A DNA stretch of 35,771 nucleotides, from the NCBI GenBank assembly GCA_900314465.1, contig OMVK01000049.1, positions 1 through 35,771 of the forward strand, written 5' to 3'. The DNA is from an uncultured bacterium (GTDB taxonomy: Bacteria > Bacillota_I > Bacilli_A > RF39 > UBA660). Shown here in pieces: positions 13,762 to 35,771 of the stretch. The notes under the pieces are model-generated. The model ran no database searches, was not told the origin of the DNA, and saw only the letters and a program-made list of their open reading frames with translations. The position numbers and the translations under genes are program-made. Each line of letters starts with the position of its first letter. The first letter of the stretch is position 1.

Positions 13762-13795
13762 TATCTATATGTTATACTTTTAATAAGTGATATAT

Positions 13796-15541
13796 ATGAA
13801 TAGTAAAAAGGATAATAAAGGGTTTAAGTATTATATACAAAGATTATTAAACTATCTTCCAAGTAAAAAAATATTAATATTATTAATAATATTAAATATT
13901 ATCTCTATCTTATTTGGGATAATAGTACCTATGATATCAGCTAAATTAATAGTAAGTTTTTCTTCTAATATCTTAGATAATATAATATTAATAATAATAG
14001 TTCTAACAGTAATTAGAATATTAGATATTATTAATTCTAATATAATAAATTATATACAGTCTATTGAAACTAGTAAGATAATAGTTAATTTAAAAAAAGA
14101 TTTAGCAACTGAAATATTAAAATTAGATACTAATACTATTACTGATAAAGGTAGTGGTCATTTATATCAAAGACTTAATAATGATACTGGAAGTTTGATA
14201 TGGGCAAGTAGTAGTTTAATGAATAATTTACGTGATATATTTATAATTATTGGTACTTTAATAGCAATCTTATTTGTAAATATTAAATTTTTTATTGTTG
14301 TTTTAATATATGTAATCATAGATGTTATAATTGAAAAATTATTTACAGATAAAAATACTAAATTAAGTAAAGAATATGAAGAAGATACAGATTCAGTAGT
14401 AGGTCTTGAAAGTGAACTTGCACGTGGTATTCAAGATATAAAGATGCTTAATGCAGAACATTCTTTCTTAAAATTATTAAACAAAAAATTAAAAAATAAT
14501 ACTAATAAAGATTATGATATGAATAATTATTTAAGTAAAATAAGATCAATAATATCATTATTTGATAATACAACTAATATATTAATAATATTATTTTTAA
14601 TATCATTAATATTAGATAAAAAATTAAGTGTTTCTTTTGCTTTAGTATTATTTAATTATTTTAAAACTATATATTATAGTACTCCAGGTTTTGCTATGAT
14701 ATCTAAGAATATAAGTAAAATAATAACTTACAGTGATCGTATATTTGAAATAATAGATAGTGATTCTTCTTATCATAAAGAATCATTTGGTAATATACAT
14801 TTAGATAAAGTAATTGGTGATTTTGAGTTTAGAAATGTTTATTTTCATTATAATGATTCTAAAGAAGTATTAAAAGGTTTATCTTTTAAAATACCACATG
14901 ATAAAACTATTGGTTTTGTTGGTGCATCTGGTGTTGGAAAAACAACAATATTTAATTTATTATGTAAGATGTATGATGTTGATTCAGGTGAAATACTAAT
15001 AGATAATCATAATATTAAAGATTTAGATAGGGAGTCTATCAGAGGTAATATAACAGTTATTTCACAAGATCCATATATTTTTAATTTATCTATTAAAGAT
15101 AACTTTAAATTAATCAAAGATAATGTAACTGATGAAGAAATAAGAAACGCTTGTAAACTTGCATGCCTTGATGATTATATTGAATCTTTACCTGATAAAT
15201 ATGACACTATTCTTGGTGAGGATGGTATTACTTTATCTGGTGGACAAAAACAAAGACTTGCAATAGCCCGTGCATTAGTACAAAAAACCGAAATAATCTT
15301 ATTTGATGAAGCAACCAGTGCACTTGATAATATCACACAAAAACAAATACAAACAGCAATAGATAACTTACAAGGTAATTATACTATCATGATAATAGCT
15401 CATAGATTATCAACTATTAAAAATTGTGATAAGATTTATTATCTTGAAGATGGTAAAGTATCTCTTTCAGGTACTCATGAATACTTACTAAAACATTCCA
15501 AAGGTTATCGTACTTTATATAATGAAGAAATAGAAAAATAG
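13796..15541 (+). CDS. ABC exporter subunit (type IV half-transporter), first of a pair
   Basis: Half-transporter fusing a six-helix membrane domain (about 1-310) to an ATPase domain. ATG 13796 is used; the ribosome site is weak (AAGTGA) and a GTG nine bases upstream is possible. ATPase motifs: Walker A GASGVGKTT (376-384), Q-loop in ISQDPYIF, signature LSGGQ (480-484), Walker B ending Asp504-Glu505, His536 switch. All are canonical, so this site should hydrolyse ATP. The coupling segment ELARGIQDIKMLNAEHSF is shared with the next gene. Both proteins have 581 residues with motifs at identical positions, so they probably form a heterodimer. Substrate unknown; peptide, lipid and drug export are all possible. 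Eight bases separate it from the second subunit. Confidence 0.9.
   Translation: MNSKKDNKGFKYYIQRLLNYLPSKKILILLIILNIISILFGIIVPMISAKLIVSFSSNILDNIILIIIVLTVIRILDIINSNIINYIQSIETSKIIVNLKKDLATEILKLDTNTITDKGSGHLYQRLNNDTGSLIWASSSLMNNLRDIFIIIGTLIAILFVNIKFFIVVLIYVIIDVIIEKLFTDKNTKLSKEYEEDTDSVVGLESELARGIQDIKMLNAEHSFLKLLNKKLKNNTNKDYDMNNYLSKIRSIISLFDNTTNILIILFLISLILDKKLSVSFALVLFNYFKTIYYSTPGFAMISKNISKIITYSDRIFEIIDSDSSYHKESFGNIHLDKVIGDFEFRNVYFHYNDSKEVLKGLSFKIPHDKTIGFVGASGVGKTTIFNLLCKMYDVDSGEILIDNHNIKDLDRESIRGNITVISQDPYIFNLSIKDNFKLIKDNVTDEEIRNACKLACLDDYIESLPDKYDTILGEDGITLSGGQKQRLAIARALVQKTEIILFDEATSALDNITQKQIQTAIDNLQGNYTIMIIAHRLSTIKNCDKIYYLEDGKVSLSGTHEYLLKHSKGYRTLYNEEIEK
14985..15445 (+). repeat. Near-identical DNA shared with the second ABC gene
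   Basis: Two blocks, about 14985-15110 and 15230-15445, match 16739-16864 and 16984-17199 at a constant offset of 1,754 bases with few differences, including silent positions. The membrane-domain halves are strongly diverged. This suggests gene conversion. Confidence 0.75.
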
Positions 15542-15549
15542 GTAATAAT

Positions 15550-17295
15550 ATGAAAAAGAAAGATAATAATACAAGTTTTATATCTTATTTAAAAAAATTT
15601 ATAAAAATAAGTAAAAATAAAAAGAATATTATAATATTTATTATACTTGTTACTATCGAAGTAATATTTTCTATATTTACACCTATATGTGAAGCAAGAA
15701 TAATAACTAATCTAACAGATAGTTTATTTGAACAAGTATTTTATTATATATTAATATATTATTTATTGCGTATATTCTTTGTAATAATAGATCGTTATGC
15801 TTATAAAAACTATTTATTATTTTCTAAAGATTTTAAATATAATTTAAAAAATAATTTAGCAAAAGAAATATTAAAATTAAATTCAAGTATAGTATATAAG
15901 AGTGGTTCTGGTTTATTTATAACAAGACTTACTAGTGATATAAATTCACTTGATATAAATATAATAAATATCATATATTATGCAAGTGATATATTTATTA
16001 TATTAGGTTCATTAATAACAATATTTATAGTTAATAAAATAGCTTTTATATATGTCTTAATTACTTATATTATCTTAATTTTATTAAATAATCATATTCA
16101 AAAGAAAATAATTAAAAAAGAAAAAGAATTAGATAAATATCGTGATAAAATATCTAGTTTCGAAAATGAAATAACACGTGGTATTCAAGATATAAAAATG
16201 CTTAATTCAGAACATTCTTTCTTAAAAGAATTAAAGAATAAGAATATGGAATTATTTAGTAAAGGTAGAGATGTATTATCTTATAAAGATATCTTAAGAT
16301 CTTTATTATATATATTAAGAAATATAATTAGATTAGGTAGTTATATAATAATAGTTATATTATTAAAAGATAATATAGTTAATGGTGCTTATGCATTGGT
16401 TTTATATAATTATATAGATAATTGTTTTGGTTATTTTAAGACATTTGATTATGTTCAAGAAAATATTAGAGAATTTAAGAGATATGCAAGTAAAATTATG
16501 GAAATACTTGATGGTAGTAATGATTTTTATAAAGAAGAATTTGGTAGGACTCATTTAAATAAGATAATTGGTGATTTTGAGTTTAAAAATGTTTGCTTTA
16601 GTTATGATAATGATAAAGAAGTATTACACAATTTATCTTTTAAAGTTAAACATAATACAACTGTAGGCTTTGTAGGTAAATCTGGTGCTGGAAAGACAAC
16701 TATTTTTAATTTGTTATGTAAGATGTATGATATAAATTCTGGTGAAATATTAATAGATAATCATAATATTAAAGATTTAGATAGGGAGTCTATCAGAGGT
16801 AATATAACTATTATTTCTCAAGATCCATATATTTTTAATTTATCTATTAAAGATAATTTTAAAATTGTTAAAGAAGATATAAGTGATGATGAAATAAGAA
16901 AAGCTTGTAAGCTTGCATGTCTTGATGACTATATTGAAACACTACCTGATAAATACGATACCATAGTAGGTGAAGGTGGAGTAAGATTATCTGGTGGACA
17001 AAAACAAAGACTTGCAATAGCACGTGCCTTAGTACAAAAAACGGAAATAATCTTATTTGATGAAGCAACCAGTGCACTTGATAATATCACACAGAAACAA
17101 ATACAAACAGCAATTGATAACTTACAGGGTGAATATACTATCATGATAATAGCTCATAGATTATCAACTATTAAAAATTGTGATAAGATTTATTATATAG
17201 AAAACGGATGTATTAGTGCATCAGGTACCCATGAATACTTACTTAAGAATTCTGAAGGTTATCGTAATTTATATAATGATGAAATAGAAAAATAA
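15550..17295 (+). CDS. ABC exporter subunit (type IV half-transporter), second of a pair
   Basis: Partner of the preceding half-transporter, translated from ATG 15550 after an AGGTAA site. Membrane domain about 1-310 with six predicted helices, then the ATPase domain: Walker A GKSGAGKTT (376-384), LSGGQ (480-484), Asp504-Glu505 and AHRLSTI. Both subunits keep the catalytic Glu, so unlike many heterodimeric exporters neither ATP site looks degenerate. The membrane half shares little sequence with its partner beyond the coupling segment ITRGIQDIKMLNSEHSF, which fits complementary halves of one pore. The next gene starts 23 bases downstream with no terminator between them, so it is likely cotranscribed. 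Confidence 0.9.
   Translation: MKKKDNNTSFISYLKKFIKISKNKKNIIIFIILVTIEVIFSIFTPICEARIITNLTDSLFEQVFYYILIYYLLRIFFVIIDRYAYKNYLLFSKDFKYNLKNNLAKEILKLNSSIVYKSGSGLFITRLTSDINSLDINIINIIYYASDIFIILGSLITIFIVNKIAFIYVLITYIILILLNNHIQKKIIKKEKELDKYRDKISSFENEITRGIQDIKMLNSEHSFLKELKNKNMELFSKGRDVLSYKDILRSLLYILRNIIRLGSYIIIVILLKDNIVNGAYALVLYNYIDNCFGYFKTFDYVQENIREFKRYASKIMEILDGSNDFYKEEFGRTHLNKIIGDFEFKNVCFSYDNDKEVLHNLSFKVKHNTTVGFVGKSGAGKTTIFNLLCKMYDINSGEILIDNHNIKDLDRESIRGNITIISQDPYIFNLSIKDNFKIVKEDISDDEIRKACKLACLDDYIETLPDKYDTIVGEGGVRLSGGQKQRLAIARALVQKTEIILFDEATSALDNITQKQIQTAIDNLQGEYTIMIIAHRLSTIKNCDKIYYIENGCISASGTHEYLLKNSEGYRNLYNDEIEK
16739..17199 (+). repeat. Near-identical DNA shared with the first ABC gene
   Basis: Partner copy of the blocks at 14985-15110 and 15230-15445. 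In about 160 bases around the Walker B region only about six differences are seen. Confidence 0.75.
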
Positions 17296-25618: not shown

Positions 25619-26272
25619 ATGGCTAAAAAGAAAAAAAATTTAGATGATGAAAATCTAACTAATGAAGAACGTGAAGAATTAAAAAAAGAAGAACAAACTA
25701 AATATGCTAAAAAAGATATCTTTTTAGATGTTGCCCCATATTTAATAATAATATTCTTTGTAATAATAATAAGAACATTTATATGTTCTCCGGTTACTGT
25801 TAATGGTACAAGTATGTATCCAACACTTCATGATGGAGATTATATGCTTTTATATAAATTGACTAAGAAGTTTAGAGGTATAAGAAGATTTGATATCGTA
25901 GTTGTAAATACTAAATCAGGAAGACTTGTTAAAAGAGTTATCGGATTACCTGGAGAAAACATTCGTTATGAAGTTAAAAAGAATGAATCAGGTGAACCAA
26001 CCGAAGGCATACTTTATGTAAACGGTAAAAAAGTAGATGAAGACTTCTTTGGTGATGATGCTAAGAGTAATCCATTACAAACATGTGTAAATAATCCTGA
26101 TATATGTAGTGAATCTGGTGTTAATGTTCCTGAAAATGAATATTATGTAATGGGTGATAATAGAGGTAATTCAACAGATTCAAGAATTATTGGTACAGTA
26201 TCATATGATAGTATACTAGGTACAACAAATGTAATATTATATCCATTCAGTAGAATAGGAAAAGCTAAATAA
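25619..26272 (+). CDS. lepB: Signal peptidase I
   Basis: Membrane serine protease removing Sec signal peptides. ATG 25619 follows GGTGA; a TTG twelve bases earlier overlaps that site. Lys/Glu-rich cytoplasmic tail (1-35), one membrane helix (about 39-57), then the S26 domain: Ser65 in GTSMYPTL, Lys105 in RLVKRVIGLPGE, and YYVMGDNRGNSTDSR near the end. 217 residues. Between the Lys box and the GDN box is a short insert with a Cys pair (CVNNPDIC) that could form an external disulfide; I do not recall this from Bacillus SipS. It likely matures the secreted protein at 3290-4600, among others. Confidence 0.96.
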   Translation: MAKKKKNLDDENLTNEEREELKKEEQTKYAKKDIFLDVAPYLIIIFFVIIIRTFICSPVTVNGTSMYPTLHDGDYMLLYKLTKKFRGIRRFDIVVVNTKSGRLVKRVIGLPGENIRYEVKKNESGEPTEGILYVNGKKVDEDFFGDDAKSNPLQTCVNNPDICSESGVNVPENEYYVMGDNRGNSTDSRIIGTVSYDSILGTTNVILYPFSRIGKAK

Positions 26273-26300
26273 GATAATTATATGTTATCTTATTTTATTT
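26271..26300 (+). terminator. lepB terminator, weak
   Basis: Stem AAGATAA (26271-26277) with TTATCTT (26285-26291), loop of 7, then a T-rich but interrupted tail. All A-T except two pairs. Confidence 0.5.
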
Positions 26301-26305
26301 TTTAG

Positions 26306-26311
26306 TATAAT
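26306..26311 (+). promoter_or_regulatory. -10 element for fmt
   Basis: TATAAT, 29 bases before ATG 26341. No clear -35. Confidence 0.45.
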
Positions 26312-26340
26312 ATAAGATAGTTATTTATGGAGATGATCTT

Positions 26341-27288
26341 ATGGTAAAAGAATTAAAAGATTTAAAAGTAGTATTTATGGGAACACCTGAGTTTTCTGTA
26401 CCTATCTTAGAATCATTAATTGAAAATACTAATGTTGTAGGTGTTGTATCAAGGGAAGATGCCTATGTTGGAAGAAAACATGTATTAACTCCTAGTCCAG
26501 TTAAAGAATGTGCCTTAAAACATAATATTAAAGTATTAACACCACATAAAATAAAAGAAGAATATGAAAGTATTTTAAATTTAGAACCAGATATAATAAT
26601 AACTTGTGCTTATGGACAAATAGTGCCTAAAGTAATATTAGATTTCCCATATTATGGATGTATAAATGTTCATGCATCAATTTTACCTGCATATCGTGGT
26701 GCATCGCCAATTCAAAGTGCTATTATGAATGGTGAAACAGAAACCGGAGTTACTATTATGTATATGGATGAAACTTTAGATACAGGTAATATAATTAATC
26801 ATGATTCTATTCCAATTGAAGATACTGATACTTATGGAACACTATCTAATAAATTAAGTATTTTAGGAAGAGACTTATTATTAAAAACATTACCTAGAAT
26901 AATTAAAGATGATAATTTTAATATTAAACAAGATGATGAAATAGCAACATATACTAAGTTAATTAAAAGAAGTGATGAAAGATTAGATTTTCATAAGACT
27001 AGAAAACAAATATATGATTATATCAGAGCCCTAAATCCAGAACCACTTGCTAATATTGTAATTAATGGCGAGGAAATAAAAGTACTTGAAAGTAAAATTG
27101 GAAAAGAATCACATGGTGAAATAGGTAAAATAACAAGTGTTAATAAAGACTCAATAGGTATTATGTGTAGTGATGGTGAAATACTAATAACTAAAATAAA
27201 ACCAGCAGGTAAAAAGATAATGCTTGTAAAAGATTATTTAAATGGTATTAATAAAGATAAATTATTAAATAATAAAGTAGAGGAATAA
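26341..27288 (+). CDS. fmt: Methionyl-tRNA formyltransferase
   Basis: Transfers a formyl group from 10-formyl-tetrahydrofolate to initiator Met-tRNA. ATG 26341 follows GGAG. The N-terminal Rossmann-like domain begins KVVFMGTPEFSVPIL. Catalytic Asn109 and His111 lie in INVHASILPAYRGA and Asp147 in DETLDTG, matching the E. coli triad. The C-terminal OB-like domain covers about 205-315. Length 315 is standard. def, the usual partner, is not here. The next gene starts three bases after the stop, with a ribosome site inside the end of fmt. Confidence 0.97.
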   Translation: MVKELKDLKVVFMGTPEFSVPILESLIENTNVVGVVSREDAYVGRKHVLTPSPVKECALKHNIKVLTPHKIKEEYESILNLEPDIIITCAYGQIVPKVILDFPYYGCINVHASILPAYRGASPIQSAIMNGETETGVTIMYMDETLDTGNIINHDSIPIEDTDTYGTLSNKLSILGRDLLLKTLPRIIKDDNFNIKQDDEIATYTKLIKRSDERLDFHKTRKQIYDYIRALNPEPLANIVINGEEIKVLESKIGKESHGEIGKITSVNKDSIGIMCSDGEILITKIKPAGKKIMLVKDYLNGINKDKLLNNKVEE

Positions 27289-27290
27289 TA

Positions 27291-27932
27291 ATGAAAAATA
27301 AAAATAATAAAAATTCATGGTTATCAGAGTTTTCTAAAAGTTATTCTGAATCAGATGATTTTCGTAAATATGCTAATTCATTATTTATAGTATTAATATT
27401 TATAATATTTTCTATTACTATGTTAGTAACTGTACATAATTATAGTGTAGAAAAGCGTAATAATAAAACAAATACTACTACAATATCTACATATCAATAT
27501 AAAGATATCTTAGAAAGTATTTTAGATAATCAAAAATACACTGAAACTATTAATATTGATAATAATAAATCAATTATAGATGGTTTATATGGTAATAAAA
27601 TACTTACAGGTACTTTAGAAAATATAAATGGTACATATAAATTTATATATAAGAATGATAAAGTATATGAAGTTAGATTAGATCAAGAATTAGAAAGTAC
27701 AATATTTGATAATTATAATATTAAATTTATAGATTTATCTAAATTAGTATTTATCTTAGAATCTAATAATTCAATAAAGACTATTAATAATAATATAACT
27801 AAATATAGTTATTCTAATATTAATATAGATAATGATATATATAATATCGAAGTATTAGTTAAAGATAATAAAGTAACTAATATTAATATTTCTAATACTA
27901 ATAGTTCTTATTTATTAGAATTTAATAATTAA
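27291..27932 (+). CDS. Single-pass membrane protein of unknown function
   Basis: Not recognised. 213 residues: a basic and Ser-rich cytoplasmic tail (1-27), one helix (about 30-50), a Thr/Asn-rich linker, then about 150 residues of alternating hydrophobic and Asn/Lys/Asp segments, likely beta-rich and outside the cell. No Cys in the ectodomain, unlike the 3290-4600 protein. It is directly behind fmt and shares its transcript, but nothing ties it to formylation. The A+T content and Asn content are at the high end for the window. Confidence 0.65.
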   Translation: MKNKNNKNSWLSEFSKSYSESDDFRKYANSLFIVLIFIIFSITMLVTVHNYSVEKRNNKTNTTTISTYQYKDILESILDNQKYTETINIDNNKSIIDGLYGNKILTGTLENINGTYKFIYKNDKVYEVRLDQELESTIFDNYNIKFIDLSKLVFILESNNSIKTINNNITKYSYSNINIDNDIYNIEVLVKDNKVTNINISNTNSSYLLEFNN

Positions 27933-27950
27933 GCATAATAATCTTATACT

Positions 27951-27978
27951 TTACATGATTATGGTTATTTGTTATAAT
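27951..27978 (+). promoter_or_regulatory. Promoter of the rimP-nusA-infB operon
   Basis: TTACAT (27951-27956), 16-base spacer, TATAAT (27973-27978) with TGT just before it. Start of transcription would be near 27985. Confidence 0.65.
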
Positions 27979-27992
27979 CATGTTGACATTTG

Positions 27993-28020
27993 AAGTGGGC
28001 CGCATAATCCCACTTTTATT
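27993..28020 (+). promoter_or_regulatory. Leader hairpin / possible attenuator before rimP
   Basis: Perfect stem AAGTGGG (27993-27999) with CCCACTT (28009-28015), 9-base loop, then TTTATTATT. It lies in the operon's 5' leader between promoter and rimP, so it may act as an attenuator, possibly linked to NusA, which affects pausing and termination. It is one of the most G+C-rich points in the window. Confidence 0.55.
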
Positions 28021-28040
28021 ATTGATTGGAGAGTGATTAG

Positions 28041-28298
28041 ATGGATGATAAATTATTAGTTAAAATAAAAGATTCAATAGATAAACCTATGAAAGATATG
28101 GATATTTATGTTGATTCAGTTATTTATGTTAATGATACTAAAGAACCTACGATAAGAATAATTTTAAACAAGATTAATGGCTTAGATATAGATACTTTAG
28201 TTAGTGCATCTAAAGTAATTAATCCAATCGTCGATAAAATAAATGCTGATTGTAATAATTATGTTTTAGAAATATGTAGTAAGGAAAGAGGAGATTAA
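28041..28298 (+). CDS. rimP: Ribosome maturation factor RimP, N-terminal domain only
   Basis: Assists 30S maturation. ATG 28041 follows GGAGAGTGA. The 85 residues align with the N-terminal alpha/beta domain of RimP: a first helix, VDSVIYVNDTKEPTIRIILNK, then DIDTLVSASKVINPIVDKI, ending at YVLEICSKERGD, where normal proteins read YVLEVSSPG. The C-terminal SH3-like domain (about 65-70 residues) is missing; the stop is followed one base later by nusA, so there is no room for it and no frameshift remnant. Position, first in the nusA operon, supports the identification. Confidence 0.85.
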   Translation: MDDKLLVKIKDSIDKPMKDMDIYVDSVIYVNDTKEPTIRIILNKINGLDIDTLVSASKVINPIVDKINADCNNYVLEICSKERGD

Positions 28299-28299
28299 A

Positions 28300-29457
28300 A
28301 TGCCAAAGAAAAAGAAAACTGAAGAAGTACAAACTGGTATGAATGGTAAAGAGTTTATGGATGCTCTTAATGATATTATTAAAGATAAACATATCGATGA
28401 AAATATTATCTGGGATGCTGTTGAACAAGGTTTAATAAGTGCTTATAAAAAGAATTATGATTCTAAGACTAATGTTAAAGTTAAAGTTAATCATGAAACT
28501 GGAGAATTTAAAGTATATCGTTATTATGTAGTAGTTGAAGATTATATCGAAGGAGATGAAGTTACTGATGAAGAAGGTAATGTAACTTATGCTGAACCTG
28601 AGATAAATGAAGATGCTCAAATATTACTTGAAGATGCTAAAGAAAAATGGCCTGATGCTAAAGTTGGTGATGAATATGAAGAAGAAGTTACACCAGCTGA
28701 CTTTGGTAGAGTAGCTGCAAGTACTTGTAAACAAGTTGTAACTCAAAAGTTACGTGAAGCCGAAAAAGAATCGTTAATTAACGAATTTTCTGATAAAGAA
28801 GGAGAATTAATGGTTGGAACACTTGAAATGGAAGATAGTAAAAATTATTATGTTGATTTAGGTAGAACAAGAGCATTACTTCCAAAAAGTGAAATAATAC
28901 CTGGTGAAAAACTAGTAATGGGTTCACAAATTAAAGTATATATATCTAAAGTTGAAAACAATGGTAAAGGACCACTTATCTTATGTTCTCGTAAACACTT
29001 TAATTTCATCAAGAGATTATTTGAATCAACTATACCTGAATTTAAAGATGGTACTCTTGAGATACATGGAGTTGCAAGAGAAGCTGGAGTAAGATCTAAA
29101 GTGTCTGTTGCATCAACTAATGAAAGAATAGATCCAATTGGTACATGTATTGGTGAAAAAGGTACACGTATTGCCAGTATCTTAAAAGAATTAAATGGTG
29201 AGAAAGTTGATTTAGTATTATATTCAGAAGATCCAGCAGAATATATTAAAAATGCATTAGCACCTGCTAAAAATGCTATTGTAACAATAACTGAAAATGA
29301 TAAAAACCATGAAGCACTTGCAATTGTACCTGATGATGAACTATCACTTGCGATAGGTAAAAAAGGTATAAATATCAAACTTGCATCTATCTTAACTAAA
29401 TTTAAGATAAATATTAAATCTATGAGCCAAGTCCAAGAAGAGGGAAATAGAGAATGA
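28300..29457 (+). CDS. nusA: Transcription termination/antitermination factor NusA
   Basis: RNA polymerase-binding factor. ATG 28300 follows GAGGAG. Order: N-terminal polymerase-binding domain (about 15-145), S1 domain (GELMVGTLEMEDSKNYYVDLG onward), then two KH domains with RIDPIGTCIGEKGTRI and DDELSLAIGKKGINIKLAS. 385 residues, without the acidic C-terminal repeats of proteobacterial NusA, as in Bacillus (371). An acidic insert (EGDEVTDEEGN) lies in the N-terminal domain. It ends with TGA, overlapping the ylxR ATG by four bases. This TGA confirms UGA as a stop codon here. Confidence 0.98.
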   Translation: MPKKKKTEEVQTGMNGKEFMDALNDIIKDKHIDENIIWDAVEQGLISAYKKNYDSKTNVKVKVNHETGEFKVYRYYVVVEDYIEGDEVTDEEGNVTYAEPEINEDAQILLEDAKEKWPDAKVGDEYEEEVTPADFGRVAASTCKQVVTQKLREAEKESLINEFSDKEGELMVGTLEMEDSKNYYVDLGRTRALLPKSEIIPGEKLVMGSQIKVYISKVENNGKGPLILCSRKHFNFIKRLFESTIPEFKDGTLEIHGVAREAGVRSKVSVASTNERIDPIGTCIGEKGTRIASILKELNGEKVDLVLYSEDPAEYIKNALAPAKNAIVTITENDKNHEALAIVPDDELSLAIGKKGINIKLASILTKFKINIKSMSQVQEEGNRE

Positions 29458-29708
29458 AAAAAATACCCATGCGTACATGTGTAGTTACTAAAGAAAGACT
29501 ACCAAAAAAAGAATTACTAAGAATAGTAAAAACAGAATCTGGAGTAGTAGTAGATGAAACAGGTAAAGTTAATGGACATGGTGTATATATAAAAAAAGAT
29601 TTAAGTGTATTAGATAAATGCAAGAAAAGTAAAATATTAGATAAATTATTAGAAACTAATATTTCTAATGATATATATAATGAAATAGAAGAAAAAATAA
29701 CAAAATAA
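29454..29708 (+). CDS. ylxR: YlxR-family RNA-binding protein (RnpM)
   Basis: 84-residue basic protein of the YlxR/DUF448 family. The core MRTCVVTKERLPKKELLRIV carries the RTC and pKkEL signatures; then VVVDETGKVNGHGVYI. The Bacillus homologue has been reported to bind RNase P RNA and modulate its activity. ATGA overlap with nusA means coupled translation. The L7Ae-like ylxQ gene that normally follows is absent: infB starts 20 bases downstream. Confidence 0.95.
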   Translation: MKKIPMRTCVVTKERLPKKELLRIVKTESGVVVDETGKVNGHGVYIKKDLSVLDKCKKSKILDKLLETNISNDIYNEIEEKITK

Positions 29709-29728
29709 GAAAGAATGAGGTGATTATA

Positions 29729-31849
29729 ATGACTGTACAAGATTATGCCGAAGATATGAACTTTACAGTACAAGATGTTTTAAATGAATGTAAACGTCTT
29801 GGTATTAAAGTAGAAAATAAAGATGCGATATTATCTGATGATGATATAGTTATGCTTGATAATACTATGAATATTATTTCTACTAATAGCGATTTAACTA
29901 ATGAAGAAGATGATGCTATTGATGATGTCGTAGATAATATAATGCTTGAAGATGATATACAACATATTGAAAGAAAAAATACTAAAACTACTGAAAAAAT
30001 TCATAAAAGAAGACAAGAAGAACAAGTAAGTAAAGATTATGCTAAGAGAAAAAAAGATATGTATAAGAATAAAGAAAAACTTGCTTCTAATACTAATGAT
30101 ACTGATAATAATATAATTATTTATAAAGAGAATATGTCTTTACAAGATTTAGCTAAAGAATTAAATGTTAATGGTATTGATTTAGTTAAAAAAGTAATGG
30201 AACTTGGTATGATGATATCACTTACTCAAAGTATTGATTTTGATACTGCTGAATTACTTGCTGCTGAATATAATAAAGTGCTTAAAAAAGAAGAGACACA
30301 AGATATCGTTAATTTTGAAAATTATGAAATAATTGATAAAGAAAGTGATTTAGTACCAAGACCTCCAGTAATTACTATTATGGGACATGTTGATCATGGT
30401 AAAACAACCTTACTTGATTATATAAGACATACTCATGTTGCTGAGGGTGAAGCCGGTGGTATTACACAATCAATTGGTGCTTATGAGATTACTTATAATG
30501 GCAATAAATTAACATTTATTGATACTCCAGGACATGCTGCATTTACTGAAATGCGTGCAAGAGGTGCATCAATTACTGATATTGTTATTATTATCGTATC
30601 AGCTGAAGACTCAGTTATGCCACAAACAGAAGAAGCAATTGATCATGCAAGAGCTGCTAATGTTCCAATCGTTGTAGCTATAAACAAGATTGATAAACCA
30701 AATGCTAATCCAGAAAAAGTTAAACAAGAAATGGCAGAACATGGACTTACTCCAGAAGAATGGGGTGGAGATGTACCTTATATTAATATTTCTGCTGTAA
30801 CTGGTGAAGGTGTTGATAAATTACTTGATACACTACTTGCAATCGCAGAAGTAAGAGAGTTAAAAGCAAATCCTAATAGATATGCATCAGGTACTGTAAT
30901 TGAATCTAAAATCGATAAGAAAATGGGTGGAGTTGCTAATATCTTAATTCAAAATGGTACTTTAAGAATTGGGGATCCAATTGTTGTTGGTACTACTCAT
31001 GGTCGTGTTCGTACAATGAAAGATGACCGTGGAAAAGATATTGTCGAAGCTGGCCCATCAACTCCAGTTTCTATCACAGGTTTATCTGATAATCCACAAG
31101 CTGGAGATAAATTCATGGCTTTTGAATCAGAAAAACAAGCAAGAGAAATCGCTGAAAAACGTTTATTACAAGAAAAATCAAAAAATACAACTCAAAAAGC
31201 TTTATCACTTGATGAACTATTTGCTGCTGTTCAAAGTGGTGTAAAAGAAATAAATGTTGTCTTAAAATGTGATGTTCGTGGTTCTGAAGAAGCCGTTAAA
31301 AACTCTTTAGAAAAGATCAATATCGAAGGAGTTAAATGTAAAGTAATTAGATCAGGTATTGGTACAATTACTGATTCTGATATCTCACTTGCTAAAGCTT
31401 CTAATGCTATTATTATTGGTTTTAATGTCATACCTACAAACGAAGTACTTGAAAGTGCTAAGGGTGAAGGTGTAGATGTTCGTTTATATACAATTATCTA
31501 TAAACTTGTCGAAGATATGGAGAGTGCTATGAAAGGTATGCTTGACCCAGTTTATGAAGAAAAAGTAACTGGTGATGCTGAAGTTAGAAAGTTATTTAAA
31601 TTTTCTAAAGTTGGAACTATTGCTGGTTGTATGGTAACAACAGGTACTATTAAAAATGGTTCTAAAGTACGTGTAATACGTGATAGTATCGTAACTTATG
31701 ATGGTATTATATCTTCACTACAAAGAGGTAAAGATAATGCTAAAGAAGTTAAAAAAGGCTATGAATGTGGTATTACAATTGAAAACTTTAATGATATTAA
31801 AATAGGTGATATTCTTCAAACTTATGAAGAAGTTGAAGTAGAAAGATAA
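29729..31849 (+). CDS. infB: Translation initiation factor IF-2
   Basis: GTPase that brings fMet-tRNA to the 30S subunit and joins the subunits. ATG 29729 follows GAGGTGA; an in-frame GTG at 29720 is part of that site. 706 residues: a short N-terminal helical domain, a charged Lys/Glu/Asn linker, a second IF2-N motif ([21 protein letters not shown]), G domain with GHVDHGKTT (219-227), DTPGHAAF and NKID, then domains II-IV with [13 protein letters not shown]. Close to the Bacillus length (716). rbfA follows two bases later. Confidence 0.98.
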
Positions 31850-31851
31850 TT

Positions 31852-32202
31852 ATGAATAAAATAAAACAAGGTCGTATATCTAGTGATATTTTACGTAATT
31901 TATCTAATATCATGTTACTTGAATCACGTGATGAAACACTTAAACATATTACTTTAACAGGGTGTGAAGTTACAAATGATTTATCACTTGCACGTGTTTA
32001 TTACACATATATGGGTAATGAGACAATCGATGCAGTTAAAGAAAACTTAAAAGTAGCTGAACCATATTTAAGAACTGTACTTGCAAGTAAAATGAGTGAT
32101 TTACGAAAAATACCAGAATTAAGATTTATCCAAGATGAATCAAGAGAATATGGTAATAAAATAGATAAATTAATTGAAAAAATACATGAAGATGAGCAAT
32201 AA
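31852..32202 (+). CDS. rbfA: Ribosome-binding factor A
   Basis: KH-fold protein needed for late 30S maturation and 16S rRNA 5' end processing. 116 residues with the expected blocks: RISSDILRNLSNIM near the start, HITLTGCEVTNDLSLARVYYT, and LRTVLASKMSDLRKIPELRFIQDES. The ribosome site is weak (GAAAG), but the start is two bases from the infB stop, so re-initiation may suffice. A hairpin overlaps its stop codon (32191-32216). Confidence 0.96.
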   Translation: MNKIKQGRISSDILRNLSNIMLLESRDETLKHITLTGCEVTNDLSLARVYYTYMGNETIDAVKENLKVAEPYLRTVLASKMSDLRKIPELRFIQDESREYGNKIDKLIEKIHEDEQ

Positions 32203-32216
32203 TCTGCTCATCTTTT
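32191..32216 (+). terminator. Hairpin at the end of rbfA, partial terminator
   Basis: Perfect 8-bp stem GATGAGCA (32191-32198) with TGCTCATC (32205-32212), 6-base loop holding most of the stop codon, then only TTTT. The short tail and the following truB suggest partial termination or mRNA 3'-end protection. Confidence 0.6.
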
Positions 32217-32234
32217 ATAAATATGGGAGTAATT

Positions 32235-33074
32235 ATGAACGGAATACTAATAGTAAATAAAGAAGCTAATATGACATCAAGAGATGTAGTAAACAAATTA
32301 ACTCATATCTTACACACTAAACATATTGGTCATACTGGAACACTAGATCCAATAGCAACTGGAGTACTTGTATGTGTAATAGGTAAATATACTAAATTAT
32401 GTGATGATTTAACTAGTACATATAAAGAATATATAGCTGAATTTAAATTAGGTATAAAAACAGATACTTATGATTATACAGGTAATATAATTAATACAAG
32501 TAATAAAAAAGTAGCTAACAATGAAATAAAAAATATAATAAATTCATATGTTAAAACATATAACCAAGAAGTACCAATATATTCAAGTGTTAAAATAAAT
32601 GGAAGAAAATTATATGAATATGCTCGTAATAATGAAACAGTAATATTACCTAAAAGAGAAGTTACTATTAAATCAATAGATATATTAAGTATTAAAGATA
32701 ATATTATTAAAATAAAATGTTTAGTATCAAAAGGAACATATATTAGATCACTTATAAATGATATAGGTATTTCTCTAGGTACATATGCAACTATGATATC
32801 TTTATGTAGAACTAAACAAGGTATATTTGATATAAGTAATAGTTATACTTTAGAAGATATTAAAAATAATAATTATAAATTACTTAATTTAGAAGATGTC
32901 TTAGATTTAGATATTATTAATGTATCAGATAATCTATATAAATTAATAAATAATGGAGTATCTATAGATTATACTAGTAATAAAGAATATCTATTATTTA
33001 GATATCATAATGAAGATATATCTTTATATAAAAGAATAGATAATAAGTATCATATGTATATTTATTTAAAATAA
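32235..33074 (+). CDS. truB: tRNA pseudouridine-55 synthase TruB
   Basis: Makes pseudouridine 55 in the T loop of tRNAs. ATG 32235 is chosen because an ATG at 32223 merges with the GGGAG ribosome site; the protein then begins MNGILIVNKEANMTS, the family's usual start. Catalytic Asp38 lies in GHTGTLDPIATGVL; further blocks are KEYIAEFKLGIKTDTYDYTG, VPIYSSVKINGRKLYEYAR and KGTYIRSLINDIG. 279 residues, with a divergent C-terminal part that may be a reduced PUA-like domain. ribF, which often follows truB in Firmicutes, is absent; ppdK comes next under its own promoter. Confidence 0.97.
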   Translation: MNGILIVNKEANMTSRDVVNKLTHILHTKHIGHTGTLDPIATGVLVCVIGKYTKLCDDLTSTYKEYIAEFKLGIKTDTYDYTGNIINTSNKKVANNEIKNIINSYVKTYNQEVPIYSSVKINGRKLYEYARNNETVILPKREVTIKSIDILSIKDNIIKIKCLVSKGTYIRSLINDIGISLGTYATMISLCRTKQGIFDISNSYTLEDIKNNNYKLLNLEDVLDLDIINVSDNLYKLINNGVSIDYTSNKEYLLFRYHNEDISLYKRIDNKYHMYIYLK

Positions 33075-33094
33075 TTCAGAAATAATTAATTTTA

Positions 33095-33124
33095 TTGATT
33101 ATCTTTAAAAAAACTTGCTATAAT
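33095..33124 (+). promoter_or_regulatory. ppdK promoter
   Basis: TTGATT (33095-33100), 18-base spacer, TATAAT (33119-33124) preceded by TGC. Same extended -10 as polC and ruvA. Confidence 0.7.
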
Positions 33125-33156
33125 ATAGAAGTACGTGTAAGAAAGGAAAATAAATA

Positions 33157-35771
33157 ATGACTAAGAAATATGTATATTTATTTAAAGAAGGTAATGCGAA
33201 TATGCGTGAACTTCTTGGAGGTAAAGGTGCTAACTTAGCTGAAATGGCTAACCTTGGTTTACCAGTTCCTCATGGATTTACTATCACTACTGAAGCATGT
33301 ACTCAATATTATGATGATGGAAAAGATATTTCTCCTGAAATCAAAAAACAAATTGATAAAGCTTTAAAAGAACTTGAAAAAGAACAAGGTAAAAAGTTCG
33401 GTGATAATAAAGATCCATTACTTGTATCAGTAAGATCTGGTGCTCGTGCATCAATGCCTGGTATGATGGATACTATTCTTAACTTAGGATTAAACGATGT
33501 TGCTGTTGATGCCTTTGCTAAGAAGACTAATAATGAAAGATTTGCTTATGATTCTTATAGAAGATTCATCCAAATGTTTTCAGATGTAGTTATGGGAGTT
33601 CCAAAAAGTTACTTTGAAAAGATAATTGATGAAGTAAAAAATAAAAAAGGTATTAAATATGATATTGAACTAACAACTGATGACTTAAAAGAATTAGTTA
33701 AGAGATTCAAGGAAGTTTATAAAGAAAACATGAACGGTGAAGAATTTCCACAAGATCCTAAAGTTCAATTAATGGAAGCTATTAAGGCTGTATTTAGATC
33801 ATGGGATAATCCAAGAGCTATTGTATATCGTCGTATGAATGATATCCCTTATTCATGGGGTACTGCAGTTAATGTACAAGCTATGGTATTTGGTAATAAA
33901 GGAAACACTTCAGGTACTGGAGTTGCATTTACAAGAAATCCTGCTACTGGTGAAAAAGGTATTTTTGGTGAATACTTAATAAATGCACAAGGTGAGGATG
34001 TTGTTGCTGGTGTTCGTACTCCACAACCAATTGCTAAGTTAAAAGAAGACTTACCAGAAGTTTATGATGAATTTATAAAAGATGCTATGATGCTTGAAGA
34101 ACATTACAAAGATATGCAAGATATGGAATTTACTATTGAAGAAGGCAAATTATATTTCTTACAAACTCGTAATGGTAAGAGAACTGCACATGCTGCTATT
34201 AAGATTGCTTGTGATTTAGTTGATGAAGGCAAGATTGATGAAGATGAAGCAGTTATGCGTATTGAACCAAAGAGTCTAGATCAATTATTACATCCAACTT
34301 TTGATCCTGATGCTCTAAAGAAGGGTGAAGTAATTGGTGAAGGTTTACCTGCAAGTCCTGGTGCTGCTGCTGGTTGTGTAGTTTTTAATGCTGAACGTGC
34401 AAAAGAACTAGGTAAAGGTGGTAAAGGAGATAGAGTCGTATTAGTTAGACTTGAAACTACTCCTGAAGATATCGAAGGCATGGTTGCAGCTCAAGGTGTA
34501 TTAACAGTTCGTGGAGGTATGACTTCACATGCTGCTGTTGTTGCCCGTGGAATGGGAACATGCTGTGTTTCTGGATGCGGTGCAATTGTTATCGATGAAA
34601 AGAAGAAAGAATTCTCACTTGGTGGACATACTTACCATGAAGGAGACTATATTTCACTAGATGGTTCTACTGGAAAAATCTATGATGGTGATATAAAGAC
34701 TCAAGATGCTACAGTTGCTGGTGATTTTGGTCGTATCATGAAATGGGCTGATGCTCGTAGAACTCTAAAAGTTAAAACTAATGCTGATAATCCAAGAGAT
34801 ACTAAGAAGGCTGTTGAACTTGGTGCTGAAGGTATCGGTTTATGTCGTACAGAACACATGTTCTTCGATGAAGAAAGAATTCCTGCAATCAGAGAAATGA
34901 TTCTATCTGATACTGTTGAACAAAGAGAAAAAGCTTTAGCTAAATTAATACCTTTCCAAAAGGGTGATTTCAAAGCTATGTATAAAGCACTAGAAGGAAG
35001 ACCAATGACAGTTCGTTATCTTGATCCACCTCTACATGAATTCTTACCTAATAACGAAAAAGATATGAAAGCTCTAGCTAAAGAAATGAATGTTTCATTT
35101 GAACATATTAAGAATAAAGTAGCTGAATTACATGAATTTAACCCAATGATGGGTCATAGAGGTTGTCGTTTAGCTGTTACATTCCCAGAAATTGCTAGAA
35201 TGCAAACTCGTGCTTTAATTGAAGCTGCTATTGAAGTTAATGAAGAAGAAGGTTACAATATTGAACCTGAAATCATGATTCCATTAGTTGGTGAAAGAAA
35301 AGAATTAAAGTTCGTTAAAGATGTTGTAATTGATGAAGCAGAAAAAGTTAAAGCTGAAAAAAATTCTGATATTAAATATCATATTGGTACTATGATTGAA
35401 ATACCAAGAGCTGCTATTACTGCTGATGAAATAGCAAAAGAAGCTGAATTCTTCTCATTTGGTACTAATGATTTAACACAAATGACATTTGGTTTCTCAA
35501 GAGATGATGCAGGTAAGTTCTTACCAGCTTATTATGAACACAAGATTTATGAACAAGATCCATTTGCTAGACTTGATCAAGTTGGTGTTGGTGGATTAAT
35601 AAAAATTGCTGTTGAAAAAGGTAAATCAACTAGACCTGATCTTGAACTTGGTATTTGTGGTGAACATGGTGGAGATCCTTCATCTATTGAATTCTGTAAT
35701 AATGTTGGACTAAATTATGTTTCATGCTCTCCATTCAGAGTTCCTATTGCTAGACTAGCTGCTGCCCAAGC
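33157..35771 (+). CDS. ppdK: Pyruvate phosphate dikinase, 3' end cut by window
   Basis: Interconverts pyruvate + ATP + phosphate with PEP + AMP + pyrophosphate; in fermentative Bacillota it often works as a pyrophosphate-linked glycolytic step. ATG 33157 follows GAAAGGAA. The frame is open to the last base (871 complete codons). The N-terminal ATP-grasp domain starts YVYLFKEGNA and contains SVRSGARASMPGMMDT. The phosphohistidine is His458 in GGMTSHAAVVARGMG. The C-terminal TIM barrel ends with CGEHGGDPSS, catalytic Cys834, and FRVPIARLAAAQ. Positions match the Clostridium symbiosum enzyme (His455, Cys831) within three residues, so only a few residues lie beyond the window. Codon use is less extreme than in neighbours, consistent with high expression. 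Confidence 0.97.
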   Translation, partial: MTKKYVYLFKEGNANMRELLGGKGANLAEMANLGLPVPHGFTITTEACTQYYDDGKDISPEIKKQIDKALKELEKEQGKKFGDNKDPLLVSVRSGARASMPGMMDTILNLGLNDVAVDAFAKKTNNERFAYDSYRRFIQMFSDVVMGVPKSYFEKIIDEVKNKKGIKYDIELTTDDLKELVKRFKEVYKENMNGEEFPQDPKVQLMEAIKAVFRSWDNPRAIVYRRMNDIPYSWGTAVNVQAMVFGNKGNTSGTGVAFTRNPATGEKGIFGEYLINAQGEDVVAGVRTPQPIAKLKEDLPEVYDEFIKDAMMLEEHYKDMQDMEFTIEEGKLYFLQTRNGKRTAHAAIKIACDLVDEGKIDEDEAVMRIEPKSLDQLLHPTFDPDALKKGEVIGEGLPASPGAAAGCVVFNAERAKELGKGGKGDRVVLVRLETTPEDIEGMVAAQGVLTVRGGMTSHAAVVARGMGTCCVSGCGAIVIDEKKKEFSLGGHTYHEGDYISLDGSTGKIYDGDIKTQDATVAGDFGRIMKWADARRTLKVKTNADNPRDTKKAVELGAEGIGLCRTEHMFFDEERIPAIREMILSDTVEQREKALAKLIPFQKGDFKAMYKALEGRPMTVRYLDPPLHEFLPNNEKDMKALAKEMNVSFEHIKNKVAELHEFNPMMGHRGCRLAVTFPEIARMQTRALIEAAIEVNEEEGYNIEPEIMIPLVGERKELKFVKDVVIDEAEKVKAEKNSDIKYHIGTMIEIPRAAITADEIAKEAEFFSFGTNDLTQMTFGFSRDDAGKFLPAYYEHKIYEQDPFARLDQVGVGGLIKIAVEKGKSTRPDLELGICGEHGGDPSSIEFCNNVGLNYVSCSPFRVPIARLAAAQ

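Follow-up and report, generated by a model that had tools for sequence, protein, structure and literature searches.

A one-domain RimP throughout a family-level clade of uncultured gut Bacilli with reduced genomes

RimP is widely conserved. In a large, family-level clade of gut Bacilli that are uncultured and have reduced genomes, the protein has lost its inter-domain linker and C-terminal domain, and the loss is real and extends throughout the clade. We came upon it in the 35,771-nucleotide stretch analysed here (the window), which belongs to a genome of 1.15 Mb in 87 contigs, 94% complete. The reading we prefer is that of a genuine one-domain RimP, which arose through one loss of the linker and C-terminal domain in the clade's ancestor and has been kept since, likely with a role at the 30S subunit; we give it a probability of roughly 0.7. 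No earlier report of a one-domain RimP was found in the open-licence literature searched.

Results

The rimP gene of the window

The rimP gene (28041-28298, + strand) encodes 85 aa and closes with a TAA stop at 28296-28298. The RimP N-terminal domain family (PF02576, RimP_N) covers residues 14-80 (28080-28280, +), corresponding to model positions 3-69 of 73. Its score of 25.2 bits is over the cut-off of 22.7, and at 24-25 bits to RimP_N the window copy is a divergent one. RimP_N is the sole Pfam match of the protein at E<=0.001, and the RbfA family is not matched. The NCBIfam whole-protein equivalog models for RimP reach 28.1 bits at best against a cut-off of 163, through the N-terminal half only. 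The open reading frame ends where the last strand of the N-terminal domain ends, and the linker and Sm/SH3-like C-terminal domain are absent. When 67 clade proteins are aligned with 42 from the outgroup, a five-residue tail, KERGD (28281-28295, +), stands in their place.

An earlier note on this DNA had described the protein as a RimP cut down to its N-terminal domain. The PF02576 match, the absence of the C-terminal family PF17384 and the 78-88 aa lengths in relatives all bear this out. It had also placed the stop where the C-terminal domain should start, which agrees with a last strand ending at residue 80 and a missing linker, and it had put nusA one base later behind a strong ribosome site. 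We find the nusA ATG at 28300, 1 base past the rimP stop, and the site at 28287-28294. That single base between stop and nusA (385 aa, 28300-29457, +) leaves no space for a frame-shifted C-terminal domain.

As expected of RimP, the gene is the first of rimP-nusA-infB. The rest of the operon comprises rnpM (ylxR) and infB (29454-31849, +), followed by a putative rbfA of 116 aa (31852-32202, +), named from sequence reading and position. Upstream of rimP lie a ribosome-binding site read from the sequence (GGAG, 28028-28031, +) and a terminator hairpin of the rimP-leader type (AAGTGGG / CCCACTT, then T-rich; 27993-28024, +). A simple scan places such a hairpin before rimP in 49 of the 67 clade genomes and in 34 of the 42 from the outgroup; with the element in both groups, control of the operon looks ordinary. 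The rimP-leader motif is referred to in PMC2965389 as the most widespread attenuator. A search of Rfam over 26000-33200 returned nothing above the gathering score.

Two other features of the window are recorded here. Between fmt and rimP, 27291-27932 (+) encodes a 213-aa protein with one N-terminal membrane-spanning-like stretch, which matches neither Pfam nor NCBIfam models at E<=0.001. Further upstream are two tandem ABC transporter genes (13787-17295, +), whose ATP-binding halves are, by eye, nearly alike, as from a recent duplication or conversion.

Lengths among relatives

The earlier note had proposed comparing rimP lengths in related genomes, with full-length orthologues in close relatives, and a sequencing error behind the stop, as the outcome that would overturn it. 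The first sample consisted of 70 genomes of the same family (the window's included) and 47 from other families, and RimP_N exceeded its cut-off in 106 of these 117 relatives. Within the family, where 67 of 70 genomes had a RimP_N match, every one of the 67 genes measured encodes 78-88 aa (median 84); the truncation is thus lineage-wide, and full-length orthologues were found in none of them. Among the 17 other families, with matches in 42 of 47 genomes, all 42 measured proteins have 141-164 aa (median 154). A larger order-level draw gave a RimP_N match in 180 of 193 genomes, every one of the same family, and among the matches listed the open frames run from 80 to 127 aa, with a 165-aa exception (G237). 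This frame and a 148-aa frame in G059 are not long forms of RimP: the extra length is upstream open frame, and the protein ends as in the others. A clade-specific profile recovered rimP in one more clade genome. Fifteen clade genomes are without rimP; nusA is missing too in 14 of these and cut by a contig edge in the other, and we therefore take the absences as assembly gaps.

Across 392 genomes of the phylum, the clade profile matches 236, including 19 of 19 clade members. Among the phylum matches listed, short frames outside the clade occur only in G332 (102 aa) and G365 (92 aa), and other short cases may exist in the phylum. Both are artefacts of TGA read as Trp, and both become two-domain proteins under code 4. 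In one mycoplasma-like genome, a divergent two-domain RimP (G105:C3:92198-92617) is missed by RimP_N and was found by an outgroup C-terminal profile (E 5e-7) and by the clade profile (E 2e-7).

These data also speak to whether the short gene is a product of sequencing, assembly or genetic code. The genomes are metagenome-assembled, and the two outgroup genes just described do appear short through code 4. Against this stand an identical structure in 67 independent genomes and the stop codons of the clade genes, which are TAA in 55, TAG in 11 and TGA in 1 of the 67. Since all 67 same-family genes have 78-88 aa, sequencing error is excluded, and since TAA is a stop in code 4 also, the window gene is no genetic-code artefact. 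We regard an artefact of any of these kinds as already refuted.

Phylogenetic placement of the clade

A tree of NusA and S12 from 100 genomes recovers the clade as monophyletic with a support of 0.91, on 354+138 columns that are thin evidence for deep branching. Families f17 and f6 are its sisters, and their four members have a full-length RimP. A single loss is therefore the simplest account. Named neighbours of the clade in the genome collection are gut MAGs labelled Bacilli, Tenericutes or Erysipelotrichaceae. The clade probably corresponds to the GTDB order RF39. PMC6784871 and PMC7301438 present RF39 as an order of Bacilli that is uncultivated and highly reduced.

Fold, conserved residues and selection

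An AlphaFold2 model built on 67 clade rows (mean pLDDT 85.3) predicts a helix-strand-strand-helix-strand fold whose last strand ends at residue 80. Judged by this model, the N-terminal domain is complete, and just the linker and second domain are gone. Foldseek searches with the clade model gave only three matches below 0.001, all of them RimP structures (M. smegmatis 5gl6, E 8.1e-6; S. aureus 8bh7, 2.7e-4; S. pneumoniae 1ib8, 3.4e-4; 75-86 columns). The N-terminal fold is therefore common to the clade protein and two-domain RimP (YhbC/YlxS), as are the position before nusA-infB and the rimP-leader type of terminator. RbfA, a one-domain KH-type 30S factor, is likewise small, and section 2.7 of PMC9032327 describes the RimP N-terminal domain as structurally similar to it. 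However, RbfA comes up in the fold search only as a weak match to one structure ranked 47th (E 0.015), sequence models assign the clade protein to RimP, and a separate rbfA-like ORF is present at 31852-32202.

Alignment of the 67 clade with the 42 outgroup proteins shows where the two forms part. The outgroup E-V-S-S-P-G-x-E-R-P-L becomes D-V-x-S-K-E-K/R-G and a stop in the clade, so that the conserved linker SSPGxERPL is missing, with S-K-E-K/R-G in its place. Unlike two-domain RimP, the clade protein thus has neither the linker (S-S-P-G-x-E-R-P-L) nor the C-terminal Sm/SH3-like domain; it has residues of its own in helix 2, and its gene contains the nusA ribosome site. The helix-2 residues form a clade-specific motif near the end of the helix, I-N-P-I-x-D, whose N and P are each found in 58 of the 67 proteins. 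D43, D65, L76 and K81 are conserved at 90% or more. Over the domain, dN/dS has a median of 0.284 in 129 pairs, chosen by an identity cut with a crude denominator (above 1 for close pairs) and many of them with high dS. This median indicates that the short protein is under purifying selection.

The gene might instead be decaying toward loss, as in some reduced Bacilli without RimP. Such a course could be imagined here, given reduced genomes, a divergent copy in the window and a survey of Mollicutes (PMC4014445) that records RimP from only a few members. Yet wherever the locus is assembled in a clade genome rimP is retained, and the intact predicted fold, the purifying selection and the conserved clade-specific motif all argue for maintenance. 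We consider decay very unlikely.

The rimP-nusA junction

The nusA Shine-Dalgarno sequence of the window, AGAGGAGA (28287-28294, +), lies within the last rimP codons. The nusA ribosome site is wholly within rimP in 67 of 67 clade genomes as against 3 of 40 outgroup genomes; nusA starts were chosen by ribosome-site strength, a rule that favours finding a site and was the same for both groups. In all 67 clade genomes nusA starts between -20 and +4 nt from the rimP stop (median +1); the outgroup median is +14. The last 18 nt of clade rimP are 85% purine, versus 57% in the body of the gene. With the nusA site inside it and so purine-rich an end, the conservation of S-K-E-K/R-G is at least partly at the level of RNA. 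In 23 of 42 outgroup genomes, the homologous linker codons are SD-like already, and the embedded site therefore did not necessarily arise anew. Given these positions, rimP and nusA are probably translationally coupled.

This arrangement raises the prospect that the short rimP serves mainly as a leader cistron for the translation of nusA, the ribosome role of its protein having been lost. The embedded site in 67 of 67 genomes and the purine-rich last 18 nt (85%, body 57%) are what such a cistron would display. It would not explain why the N-terminal domain is under selection at the protein level (median dN/dS 0.284) or why conservation reaches at least 90% at D43, D65, L76 and K81, and we hold it to be unlikely.

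Search for a separate C-terminal domain

PF17384, the C-terminal domain family, has no match in the window genome at E<=10; of 14 control genomes it matched 12, with 8 of these scoring above the cut-off. Over the 145 family genomes no match exceeds the cut-off, and 61 are weak. We read ten of these 61 ORFs and scanned the five small ones for families. Three are Veg and one is an LSM protein, neither of them a free C-terminal domain; in the remaining small ORF the best family is still sub-threshold PF17384. The other five matches fall within long unrelated ORFs. An outgroup C-terminal profile built from 35 domains finds all 42 outgroup rimP genes (35 of which are its own rows), gives weak, scattered matches in 22 of 70 clade genomes and finds none in the window's genome. 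Its best match, a DUF6897 protein in G002 (E 2.6e-5), convinces in just 2 of 70 clade genomes and was rejected as a C-terminal domain.

The separate SH3-like gene that the earlier note had suggested looking for was therefore not found in the clade by PF17384 or by the outgroup profile. Its other suggestion, that the lineage does without the C-terminal domain, fits these results: none is present in the short rimP and no free-standing one was found, although a very diverged one may lie elsewhere in the clade genomes. For the domain to act in trans, a separate Sm/SH3-like protein would have to carry it. The clade does have small proteins of this kind (Veg, a 65-aa LSM protein, the DUF6897 protein). 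Nonetheless, PF17384 is over its cut-off in 0 of 145 family genomes, the outgroup profile is weak in 22 of 70 clade genomes and absent from the window's, and the DUF6897 protein convinces in 2 of 70 only; we disfavour this explanation and see very little chance that it holds.

The LSM-domain proteins of about 65 aa occur at L041 1396-1593 (G008) and L171 1501-1698 (G002); the gene at L041 directly follows a small membrane-protein ORF.

Residue 90 of S12

S12 sequences were taken from 107 of the 111 genomes having the gene, four outgroup ones being left out. All 64 clade genes have Ile where E. coli S12 has Pro90 (K-D-L-x-G-V-R-Y), and outgroup S12 has Pro in 34, Ala in 6, Gly in 2 and Ser in 1; three sequences missed by the regular expression (two clade, one outgroup) were read by eye. 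The numbering K87-D88-L-P90-G91 follows the S12 mutants of PMC4182516. One clade S12 gene is at G000:C79:11254-11562 (L173). Among the 392 phylum genomes, the exact Ile motif occurs in 18 of 19 clade genomes versus 0 of 373 others, in a scan that would miss variants such as V-P-D-L-I-G. The one clade genome without it, G027, has no S12 match at all.

Functional data on this residue come from mutants. P90Q, P90R and P90L in K. pneumoniae S12 are listed in PMC4182516 as streptomycin-dependent, and P90W and P90L are described in PMC4224418 as hyper-accurate, with the A-site moved off S12. Ribosomes with such substitutions are reportedly often streptomycin-dependent too. RimP, according to section 2.7 of PMC9032327, contacts h44 and holds A1492/A1493 away from S12. 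The two clade-wide changes thus fall at a single site of assembly. It is tempting to see the loss of the RimP linker and C-terminal domain and the fixed Pro90-to-Ile change as one coupled adaptation, a rebuilt route to a mature decoding site. Since the two changes characterise just one clade, however, their association amounts to a single event. Moreover, 9 of 43 outgroup S12 genes are non-Pro (Ala, Gly, Ser) with a full-length rimP wherever it was measured there, and the mycoplasma-like G094 keeps the proline though it has no RimP_N match. With a single clade and non-Pro outgroups that have full RimP, we put the link forward as a tentative hypothesis and are doubtful of it.

Discussion

Our preferred reading, a one-domain RimP derived by ancestral loss, would begin with a single removal of the linker and C-terminal domain in the ancestor of the family-level clade. 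A deletion or truncation would have set nusA against the rimP stop and brought the nusA site into the codons for S-K-E-K/R-G at the end of rimP. An old nusA ribosome site may have been fused by the loss to the end of the N-terminal domain; alternatively, the site may have grown out of linker codons.

By analogy with its two-domain homologues, the small RimP most likely still aids assembly of the 30S subunit in the region of S12, the central pseudoknot and the upper end of h44, and would do so with fewer contacts than two-domain RimP. In M. smegmatis RimP, the inter-domain linker is reportedly essential and neither domain alone sufficient. If so, assigning S12 binding to the C-terminal domain oversimplifies matters, and should S12 binding depend on the linker, a linkerless protein may not act like RimP. 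In a different test, summarised in section 2.7 of PMC9032327, the N-terminal domain of E. coli RimP failed to suppress an rbfA null. The same section reports that deletion of RimP kills S. pneumoniae and impairs the growth of Gram-negative bacteria.

A clade living on the N-terminal domain alone is a natural domain-deletion experiment on which half of RimP is essential. Were the two changes coupled, S12 Ile90 could supply part of the role of the lost RimP half, or, alternatively, the small RimP could permit assembly of such an S12. The co-occurrence with S12 Ile90 makes a genetic interaction between RimP and S12 testable.
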